DNA of 32,320 nucleotides from a virus. Location of the stretch: the IMG/VR virus record IMGVR_UViG_3300010299_000028, positions 1-32,320 of that record, one strand, 5' to 3'. The notes beneath the pieces were generated by a model that was not told the origin of the DNA, did not search any database, and worked only from the letters and a program-made list of their open reading frames with translations. A program made the position numbers and the translations under genes. Positions within the stretch are counted from its first letter, which is position 1, and each line of letters begins with the position of its first letter. Below, in pieces: positions 30,384-32,320 of the stretch.

Positions 30384-30812
30384 ATGTCGAACAGTTTTGA
30401 TAAAATCGATGAGGCTCTGAACATAGAGAGTAGTCTTGTAGAGATCGACTCTCCACAAAATGAAAGAGTTGATCTGATTAAAAAACCAGATAATAATGAT
30501 ATTCAAAAAGATTATCAGTATACCAGAGCAAATTTATATTCATTGATTGAAAAGGGGCAAGAGGCAATCAATGGGATCATGGAACTTGCTGGAGAGGGTG
30601 GAAGTCCAAGAGCATATGAAGTTGCCGGTCAATTAATTAAGTCTGTTGGAGATGTTACGGATAAATTAATTGATCTTCAGAAAAAACTTAAAGATGTCGA
30701 GGAAGATACTGTCAAAACAACTAATAATGTTACAAATAATGCTTTGTTTGTTGGATCAACAGCAGAGTTATCAAAACTACTTAAACAAGGTTTTCTAAAT
30801 AATAAAGAGTAA
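30384..30812 (+). CDS. gp16: terminase small subunit gp16
   Basis: A 142-aa protein (T4 gp16: 164 aa). The core matches T4: DYQYTRANLYSLIEKGQEA, then SPRAYEVAGQLIKSVGDVTD, KLIDLQKKLKDVE and NALFVGSTAELSKLL (T4 DYGVVRRNMHF, SPRHMEVFATLMGQM, REILKLHKDMKDI, NATVFMGSPTEL). In T4, gp16 forms rings that help start DNA packaging by the large terminase gp17. The N-terminal 40 residues are acidic; the centre is helical and probably coiled coil. In T4 gp17 follows directly; here at least two other genes come next. Confidence 0.92.
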   Translation: MSNSFDKIDEALNIESSLVEIDSPQNERVDLIKKPDNNDIQKDYQYTRANLYSLIEKGQEAINGIMELAGEGGSPRAYEVAGQLIKSVGDVTDKLIDLQKKLKDVEEDTVKTTNNVTNNALFVGSTAELSKLLKQGFLNNKE

Positions 30813-30824
30813 TACGATATTTTA

Positions 30825-32258
30825 ATGGGCTGGTCTGGCAAATACAAAAGATCAATAGATTGTGATAATCCTAAGGGGTTTTCACAAAAGGCTCATTGTG
30901 ATGCTCGCAAAAAAAGAGCGGCAGGTGAAGAAACATCTTCAAAATCTCCATTTAATGAAGATGTGAAAGGTGCTACATTTTCAAAATTTTCACACAAAAC
31001 AAAGCACCTTTCAAAATCTCAACATCAGTTAGATCCAAATTTAGATATAAAACAATTGGTTCATCACGCAACTGTTCAATATGTTGATAGGGACGCTGAT
31101 GGTGATGTTGACGTTTATGATAAACCAAACAAAAAAACTCCAGATGAAAATCCATTAAGTGGACCAGTTCAAGCTCAAGTTTCTTCTAAAAAATTAATTG
31201 CCAAACAAAAAGGTGAATTAAAGCATACCAGAAGAGGTATGGCATATGAGGAGACTAAATCTGGAGATGAAGGTCTTCGTGATTGGTTTGGTAAGTCAAA
31301 ATCATCTGACGGTAAAAGTGGTTGGGTTCAATTAGGTGGCAAATGGGCAGGAAAACCTTGTGCTCGTCAACCAGGACAAACTTCCACACCAAAATGCGGC
31401 AGTTCTAAAATGGCAGCAAATCTTTCCCCAGAGGAAGAAGAAAGAGCGAGAAGAAGAAAAAATAGACAAGATCCTAACCAACCAGAAAAAACTGGTGGAG
31501 CAAAACCAACAAATGTAAGAACCGAAGAAATGGATTTACAAGAAGTCAAGGACAAACCAGGCAAAGGCAGTGGTAAAAAAGATGCCTGTTACAATAAAGT
31601 AAAATCAAGATATGATGTTTGGCCAAGTGCTTATGCTTCTGGAGCACTGGTTAAGTGCCGCAAAGTTGGTGCGGCAAACTGGGGAAATAGTACAAATGAA
31701 GAGAAGGATCATGAGTATTCAATGGCTCGTTCTGAACTTTCCACAATTATTGCTGCGGCAAAGAGATTGAAGAAAAAAATGGGAAAGGGTGAAGGGAATA
31801 TTGAAGCATGGGTTCAATCCAAAATTACAAAAGCGGCAGATTATATTGACACTGCGGCAGATTATGTCGAAAGCGGTGAGCATAATGTTGATGAGGCATG
31901 TTGGGTTGGATATAAGCAAATTGGCATGAAAAAGAAGGGTAAGAGAATGGTTCCAAATTGTGTAAAGGAGGGATATTCAAACTGGCGACAAGAACTCGAA
32001 GAAGATTGGCAAAAGGTTAACAAGTCAGATAAAACTGATGGTATGAGTCCCGCAGCAGTTAAGGCATATCGTCGTGAGAACCCAGGTTCCAAACTTAAGA
32101 CTGCTGTAACTGGTGATCCAAAACCAGGTAGTAAGGATTCTAAGCGCAGAAAGTCCTTCTGTGCCCGCTCTAAGGGGCAGCAAGACATGCATAACATCGA
32201 TTGCTCTAAAACCCCCGATAAAGCAATTTGTAAAGCCCGTCGTCGCTGGAAGTGCTGA
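30825..32258 (+). CDS. modular, basic, Cys-containing phage protein between gp16 and next gene
   Basis: A 477-aa, Lys/Arg/Gly-rich protein made of short modules joined by charged linkers: (1) residues 1-30, SIDCDNPKGFSQKAHC; (2) an EF-hand-like loop at 88-99; (3) GLRDWFGKSKSSDGKSGW with a PCARQPG...PKCGSSK Cys pair, about 150-197; (4) DACYNKVKSRYDVWPSAYAS to VKCRKVGAANWG, 253-287, resembling DUF5872-type sequences; (5) a helical YSMARSELSTIIAAAKRLKK to WVQSKITKAADYI, 297-352; (6) ACWVGYKQIGMKKKGKRMVP, about 358-382; (7) a C-terminal KRRKSFCARSKGQQ to ICKARRRWKC. I recall each module in various marine phage proteins, in different combinations, without known function. The Cys pairs could bind zinc. 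The position after gp16 hints at a head or packaging role. Arg codons CGT/CGC are frequent in its last third. Confidence 0.8.
   Translation: MGWSGKYKRSIDCDNPKGFSQKAHCDARKKRAAGEETSSKSPFNEDVKGATFSKFSHKTKHLSKSQHQLDPNLDIKQLVHHATVQYVDRDADGDVDVYDKPNKKTPDENPLSGPVQAQVSSKKLIAKQKGELKHTRRGMAYEETKSGDEGLRDWFGKSKSSDGKSGWVQLGGKWAGKPCARQPGQTSTPKCGSSKMAANLSPEEEERARRRKNRQDPNQPEKTGGAKPTNVRTEEMDLQEVKDKPGKGSGKKDACYNKVKSRYDVWPSAYASGALVKCRKVGAANWGNSTNEEKDHEYSMARSELSTIIAAAKRLKKKMGKGEGNIEAWVQSKITKAADYIDTAADYVESGEHNVDEACWVGYKQIGMKKKGKRMVPNCVKEGYSNWRQELEEDWQKVNKSDKTDGMSPAAVKAYRRENPGSKLKTAVTGDPKPGSKDSKRRKSFCARSKGQQDMHNIDCSKTPDKAICKARRRWKC
31086..31121 (+). other. EF-hand-like calcium-binding loop in the modular protein
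   Basis: Residues 88-99 read DRDADGDVDVYD. Asp occupies loop positions 1, 3, 5, 9 and 12, Gly position 6 and Val position 8, a full match to the EF-hand/dockerin loop pattern. Flanking helices are not obvious, so a dockerin-like single loop is as likely as a true EF-hand. Confidence 0.6.
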
Positions 32259-32261
32259 TCA

Positions 32262-32320
32262 ATGAAAAGTTTTCAACAGTTTCTATCAGAAAGCATCACC
32301 ATTAATGGTGATTTTAATGG
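32262..32320 (+). CDS. start of a gene with capsid-targeting-like N-terminus (3' end cut by window)
   Basis: ATG at 32262, three bases after the stop of the modular gene; only 19 full codons are in the window. The visible product MKSFQQFLSESITINGDFN begins very like the capsid-targeting sequence of T4 internal head proteins (MKTYQEFIAEA). The LSE at residues 8-10 fits the (L/I)-x-E cleavage pattern of the prohead protease gp21. This does not look like the start of the large terminase gp17. Many marine T4-like phage proteins share such an N-terminus, so the identity of the protein stays open. Confidence 0.6.
   Translation, partial: MKSFQQFLSESITINGDFN

Follow-up and report, generated by a model that had tools for sequence, protein, structure and literature searches.

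A modular basic protein with paired cysteines in the gp16-gp17 slot of cyanomyoviruses

Results

The gene and its neighbours

The window analysed here is a stretch of 32,320 nucleotides of viral DNA (IMG/VR record IMGVR_UViG_3300010299_000028, positions 1 to 32,320), and the gene of interest lies near its 3' end, at 30825-32258 on the plus strand. It is an ATG-started open reading frame of 477 aa whose product, hereafter the module protein, has a pI of 9.6, a net charge of +34 and 12 cysteines (residues 13, 25, 179, 191, 255, 278, 359, 379, 446, 460, 469 and 477), exactly the Cys-rich basic protein that an initial annotation of the window had described. It is a basic outlier, as 12 of the 13 other window genes checked encode products with a pI of 4.1-5.3 and the remaining one has a pI of 8.1. 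The gene is a real coding frame under strong purifying selection (dN/dS 0.06-0.13): comparison with the closest relative (L016) gives a dS of 0.28 and a dN of 0.018 (ratio 0.06), and four more pairwise comparisons give ratios of 0.07-0.13. T4 late-promoter-like TATAAATA sites are found at window positions 1701, 15921 and 24810, shortly 5' of the gene starts at 1729, 15947 and 24846; the module gene has no such site nearby and would thus be transcribed from upstream.

The ATG lies 12 nt past the stop codon of the immediate upstream neighbour, the gene for the T4 gp16-like small terminase subunit (30384-30812, plus strand; PF11053, E=4.4e-7; phrog_445, E=1e-55), and the module gene as a whole is located just downstream of the neck/tail genes gp13-gp15. 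On its other side, at 32262-32320 on the plus strand, begins a conserved gene of about 103 aa (MKSFQQFLSESITINGDFNG...) with a T4 capsid-targeting-like N-terminus, which runs off the window. Of 71 relatives, 57 have this gene (N-terminus MKSF..F[LI]SES) directly 3' of the homologue of the module gene. The family of the downstream gene has the capsid-targeting-like N-terminus MKSFQQFLSES...GDFNG (for example, L010 7592-7900), of a kind that is rare outside this FNG family (about 13 of 2,270 non-module ORFs), and its product is absent from the proteins detected in virions of S-SCSM1 (ORF30) and S-SZBM1 (191).

The large terminase gene gp17 lies beyond the window end and follows the module gene in relatives, in agreement with the placement between gp16 and an expected gp17 that had been proposed from the window. 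Homologues lie between terS and terL in S-SRM01, Syn9, S-SM2, S-SCSM1 and DSL-LC02, and after terS in S-SM1. The interval between gp16 and gp17 is a known hot spot (Sullivan et al. 2010, PMC3037559), which tail-fibre-like genes also occupy in S-SM2 and S-SCSM1. The module gene is a usual occupant of this hot spot in cyanomyoviruses and not a foreign insertion; to call it "inserted", as the initial annotation did, is thus misleading, while the virion-or-packaging-region context given there is supported.

The module protein matches phrog_727 (E=9.4e-93) over most of its length, and full-length relatives exist. By tblastn, 401 phage records contain relatives, with few exceptions those of cyanomyoviruses, and an IMG/VR scan retrieved 450 related stretches. 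GenBank labels homologues in S-SM2 and S-SM1 as T4-GC 119 and the S-E7 homologue as "T4-like structural protein". Judged by these matches, the protein is a member of a large, known and functionally uncharacterised cyanomyovirus family, T4-GC119 / phrog_727. Hundreds of cyanophage genomes carry this family, whose members are mostly still annotated as hypothetical. Absence from close relatives together with a lack of expression had been named as grounds for discarding the gene; it is present in hundreds of relatives. NCBIfam and PADLOC searches returned no match for the module protein, and in the literature searched we found no paper that describes DUF6321, the Pfam domain at its C-terminus, or that names gp114 together with Syn9. 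Among cellular genomes there were 13 matches, mostly on short MAG contigs with viral-looking neighbouring genes. Two lie inside long contigs with a bacterial assignment, L117 (a WOR-3 MAG chromosome, 2.8 Mb) and L109 (Neomarinimicrobiota, 335 kb), in which M4- and M3-like modules (defined below) are seen, perhaps owing to a provirus or a binning error.

Seven modules and their shuffling

Seven modules were defined by profiles built in this analysis and later widened with other loci; they recur in differing orders and numbers, which bears out the earlier description of beads on a string with at least seven modules. All are encoded on the plus strand. The protein begins with MGWSGKYKRSIDC, and its first module, M1 (30825-30929; GWSGKYK...C13...C25), is basic, has one Cys pair, is recognised by its own profile and occurs in 17 phage records. 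M2 (30951-31160, likewise recognised by its own profile) is Cys-free and slightly acidic and carries a dockerin/EF-hand-like Ca-loop. M3 (31248-31424; LRDWFG...GWVQ...C179...C191; 355 phage records) is basic with one Cys pair, to which some relatives add a second, optional pair. M4 (31530-31700; DACYNKVKSRY..WPSAYASGALVKC; 366 phage records) is again basic with one Cys pair and may be distantly related to the first half of DUF5872, which it matches below threshold (PF19197). M5 (31695-31880; 55 phage records) is Cys-free, slightly acidic and predicted to be helical, with two helices in a low-confidence model. M6 (31872-31982; ACW.GYKQ.GMKKKG...VPNC; 332 phage records) is basic, has one Cys pair and is predicted to form a beta hairpin. 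Finally, M7 (31986-32255; 503 phage records) corresponds to DUF6321 (PF19846, E=3.6e-11), has a net charge of +11.8 and contains a core Cys pair (446-477) and an optional one (460-469). The basic modules are therefore the Cys-bearing ones (M1, M3, M4, M6 and M7), and the slightly acidic ones are the Cys-free M2 and M5.

Among complete ORFs there are 37 different multi-module orders, with changes such as M5 before M3 in S-SM2, the loss of M1 or M2 and the duplication of M2. Non-recurrence of the modules elsewhere had been put forward as a reason to doubt them, and our module-by-module profile search finds that they do recur. The window protein has M1 and M2 and is without an extra module, RYCPxCxKxETRxECKYG (alignment A1 columns 401-450), that lies between M4 and M5 in most of its close relatives (for example, L025 and L051). 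This extra module has three Cys, and since that number is odd, unlike in the other modules, it could be a metal site. Further segments are seen around the modules. Melnitz-1 gp17 (L094 2990-4942) has a nucleotidyltransferase-like N-terminal half fused to M6 and further Cys-bearing segments. In P-SCSP1u, a free-standing basic mini-protein (GLYANIHAKRKRI..GSGEKMRKPG; L102 4198-4374) follows M7, and the same segment recurs inside a module-bearing S-RIM44 protein (L090 4323-5228); as it is found both beside and inside module carriers, the kit would be larger than the seven modules.

The Ca-loop motif of M2, DRDADGDVDVYD, spans residues 88-99 (31086-31121, plus strand) and is the EF-hand-like loop mentioned in the initial annotation. 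The motif is present in 61 of 6,592 distinct ORFs of the loci, against 0-1 after shuffling; related module proteins make up the majority of these 61, and 13 are without the modules. A search with EF-hand families gave no match to the module protein, in which a single 12-residue loop fits the motif, and in the low-confidence full-length model this loop is surrounded by strands rather than helices. The presence of such a loop together with several possible zinc sites in one protein was considered unusual for a phage late gene, which is too strong, as the Ca-loop motif and the paired-Cys modules recur in other marine phage proteins.

Cysteine pairs and predicted structure

Cysteines were counted over the distinct aligned sequences of each module. 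Both Cys are present in 67 of 68 rows for M1 and in 94 of 94 for M6, and M4 has both in 145 rows, neither in 13 and a single one in 0. The core pairs of M3 (185 of 185) and M7 (210 of 210) are invariant, while their additional pairs are optional: the outer pair of M3 is complete in 50 rows and missing in 122, the inner pair of M7 is complete in 23 and missing in 184, and a single Cys occurs in 0 rows in either case. On the trees, the state of a pair changes at least three times in M7 and twice in M3 with no intermediate seen, the number of independent events being modest. All 12 Cys of the module protein fall into covarying pairs that are gained and lost almost only pairwise.

Two fixed Cys accompanied by two optional ones that travel together fit disulfides and do not fit a four-ligand zinc site, and we infer that the pairs are disulfide staples. 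Four ligands conserved as a set, by which a zinc finger would be recognised, were not seen in the modules, and M1, M4 and M6 hold two Cys each. Zinc sites in the module protein were accordingly rejected. Of the initial annotation, the paired cysteines hold for all 12, and the "several possible zinc sites" do not, given that the Cys covary in pairs. Counting against the candidate disulfides, they would need to form in the reducing cytoplasm or after exit from it.

The full-length model (pLDDT 49) is too poor for use, and M7 alone gives a good helical model (pLDDT 83). Two of its helices (model residues 50-68 and 80-88), judged by their positions in the model rather than by coordinates, could form an antiparallel hairpin with the core Cys pair face to face. 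Foldseek, VIA-align and sequence searches found no solved fold for M7, and its significant and near-significant matches in BFVD are DUF6321 proteins, among them the S-SCSM1 virion protein.

A T4-type capsid-targeting N-terminus, with a propeptide ending in L/I-x-E, is absent from the module protein, and N-termini of this kind are not enriched among module ORFs (3 of 362). Cutting of the string into beads by the prohead protease was also considered and finds no support overall, since L/I-x-E is not enriched in the linkers (38 observed vs 63 in shuffles). An L-x-E is kept between M3 and M4 and, in most cases, between M6 and M7 (DLQE|V, ELxE|DWQ), and these are weak candidate processing sites.

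Modules as separate genes in other marine phages

The modules had been thought to look like free-standing phage domains, and M7, M4 and M3 do exist as separate genes. In Roseobacter phage CRP-7, three small genes in a row stand directly upstream of terL: gp65 (M7-like), gp64 (M4) and gp63 (M3-like). The assignments of gp65 and gp63 were made by visual inspection of conserved residues, and for gp63 there is in addition a match to the M3 half of DUF5872. The order is the same on a marine contig (L111), where M7, M4 and M3 are encoded by genes of 100 aa, 52 aa and 83 aa; used as IMG/VR queries, each of the three retrieved at least 581 related stretches. Of the loci retained, 92 carry each of the three modules as an ORF of its own, arranged as M7>M4>M3 on one strand in 80 of them and as M4>M3>M7 in 12. 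This count is subject to ascertainment bias, since a single locus supplied all three queries, and it includes loci that overlap within one contig, although each scan selected for one module only. Where at least two separate modules are present, a pair lies less than 600 nt apart in 124 of 126 loci. M4, M7 or both occur as separate ORFs in 78 of the 80 loci found via M3 alone, and M3 and M4 in 38 of the 72 found via M7.

The free-standing genes lie directly before terL in L333 and L347 (as M4>M3 or M7>M4>M3; the terL of L347 is confirmed by phrog_38). Elsewhere they adjoin capsid genes, as in L321 (phrog_1328) and in 21 of the 92 trio loci, which have a capsid gene of the HTVC027P type; in the T7-like P-SCSP1u, a lone M7 gene is immediately 3' of the major capsid gene. 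Their products are very basic, with medians of pI 11.1, net charge +24 and 82 aa for M3, pI 10.5, +17 and 60 aa for M4, and pI 11.8, +28 and 96 aa for M7, whereas the remaining ORFs of 150 aa or more at such loci have a median pI of 5.0. The hosts of module-bearing phages include Synechococcus, Pelagibacter, Roseobacter and Flavobacterium. New here are the occurrence of M7, M4 and M3 as separate, neighbouring and very basic genes, their shuffling into 37 fused architectures, and the gain and loss of the modules' cysteines almost only in pairs. Modules that are separate in one lineage and fused in another are a classic sign of proteins that act jointly.

Virion detection of homologues

Several homologues have been detected in particles. 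S-SCSM1 ORF29 (M3-M4-M6-M7), which occupies the terS-terL slot and has the same downstream gene, is labelled a virion protein in its record; 45 proteins of this phage were found in CsCl-purified particles by mass spectrometry. In the S-CREM2 virion proteome, ORF160 (M3-M6-M4) is represented by 7 peptides and ORF137 (M7) by 4 peptides with a coverage of 4.1%, and S-SZBM1_139 (M6) by 4 peptides in that of S-SZBM1, in which the M7 homologue (192) was not detected. The authors of the S-SCSM1 and S-CREM2 studies point out that contaminants can be present in CsCl preparations. The presence of the module protein itself in the virion is supported by these homologues in other phages.

A separate observation concerns the NMNAT/cytidylyltransferases of cyanophages. 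In all three virion-detected ones examined (L097 38820-40049; L099 21609-22469; L096 390-1478, minus strand), the N-terminal peptide resembles a T4 capsid-targeting sequence and ends in L/I-x-E (MKSFLQFLKEA, MKNFSSFLTEA and MRFRQFIIEA), suggesting from their N-termini that these enzymes may be packaged as head cargo.

Discussion

The reading that we prefer, to which we give about an even chance, is that the module protein is a head-associated, DNA-binding virion protein. Both the head position and the DNA binding are what we infer from the very basic free-standing modules and their place beside capsid and terminase genes, which make DNA the most likely partner. The protein would be built into the head of a cyanobacterial T4-like phage as a single chain of small basic mini-domains (M1, M3, M4, M6 and M7), each presumably stapled by a disulfide, with the two slightly acidic Cys-free modules M2 (Ca-loop) and M5 (helical) interspersed. 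Its basic modules may bind and neutralise packaged DNA via several contacts per chain, as proposed for T4 internal proteins, and fusion would join into a single multivalent binder what other marine phages produce as separate small proteins. The acidic character of M2 and M5, the absence of a T4-type capsid-targeting N-terminus, the small number of independent Cys-pair changes, the lack of detection of S-SZBM1 192 and the 4.1% coverage of S-CREM2 ORF137 count against this reading.

The same protein could instead be injected and act early, packaged with the genome like the T4 IPs or Alt, with modules that protect DNA or hit host targets. The fusion of M6 to a nucleotidyltransferase-like protein in Melnitz-1 points this way, as do the NMNAT/cytidylyltransferase proteins of cyanophage virions, which are thought to enter the host, and a shuffling into 37 architectures that resembles variable internal proteins. 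However, the module protein has no recognisable enzymatic domain and no capsid-targeting sequence, and its modules, unlike host-specific effectors, are conserved among phages infecting very different hosts, so that we regard an injected role as somewhat unlikely. The position between terS and terL, along with the separate module genes upstream of terL in CRP-7, L333 and L347, would also suit an accessory of DNA packaging, acting alongside the terminase in DNA end recognition or as a clamp and found in virions only incidentally. This we consider unlikely, because in many loci the separate genes adjoin the capsid gene instead and module carriers were detected in the virions of three phages.

A location outside the head, in the neck, the tail or another outer structure, is quite improbable in our judgement. 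Stapled basic modules could be adhesive or stabilising in water and M2 could bind calcium; disulfides and Ca-loops suit extracellular proteins, and both the neck/tail genes just upstream and the tail-fibre-like genes of the same hot spot would fit, but the free-standing proteins, with net charges between +17 and +28 and with capsid and terL genes as neighbours, resemble nucleic-acid binders and not fibres. We see very little likelihood of a zinc-finger regulatory protein not destined for the virion. A Cys-rich and basic composition, and the RYCPxC module of relatives that could bind metal, might suggest one, yet the Cys occur as pairs rather than as groups of four gained and lost as a unit, there is no match to any zinc-finger family, and homologues are detected in virions.

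There is also a broader and speculative reading, which we think unlikely: that marine tailed phages from several unrelated groups share a disulfide-stapled, protamine-like kit (M7, M4 and M3, with M1 and M6) that coats or condenses head DNA, and that the staples of the fused strings of cyanomyoviruses close on leaving the reducing cell, a redox switch for genome retention or release. If true, the kit would be a conserved gene trio beside a capsid or terminase gene in some phages and a set of freely shuffled, multivalent strings in cyanomyoviruses. The separate neighbouring genes and the paired cysteines pose a testable question, namely, is a shared set of stapled basic mini-proteins used by marine phages to pack their DNA? 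With the free-standing trio, three small proteins are at hand that can be directly expressed and assayed.

Comparison with known systems

The closest known relatives are members of T4-GC119 / phrog_727 such as Syn9 gp114, S-SM1_115, S-SM2_109 and S-SCSM1 ORF29, which resemble the window protein in their gp16-gp17 slot, their modules, a C-terminal DUF6321 and a similar size, charge and Cys richness, and differ from it in the order and number of modules. The Pfam entry DUF6321 (PF19846), which window residues 402-475 match with 44 bits against a curated cut-off of 28.5 bits, covers only one of the seven window modules and has no assigned function. DUF5872 (PF19197) is a more distant case. Free-standing M4 matches the first part (12-39) of its 116-position profile and free-standing M3 the second (47-96), and a Cys-free form of M4 (L240) matches at E=1.2e-11; window M4 scores 15.4 bits (E=0.03), below the cut-off of 27.5, and window M3 has no match. 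The halves of DUF5872 are thus in the order M4-then-M3, whereas the window has M3-M4, and the window modules are not filed as members. In the literature searched, DUF5872 is mentioned by name alone, for the genome of one giant virus, the algal CpV-BQ1 (PMC12085832), with no function described.

In modules and core Cys pairs, and in the terL or head genes nearby, CRP-7 gp65/gp64/gp63 and the 92 trio loci are like the window, but the CRP-7 M7, M4 and M3 are separate small proteins (47-84 aa) in place of one chain. The functional parallel lies in T4. Its internal proteins are basic, located inside the head and proposed to contact the packaged DNA (PMC9026906). No sequence similarity was found between the module protein and IPI-IPIII or Alt, which also differ from it in having a capsid-targeting N-terminus, and compared with the internal proteins it is modular, larger and made up in part of Cys-paired modules. 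The basic character is common to both, and the module protein may work like the T4 internal proteins.
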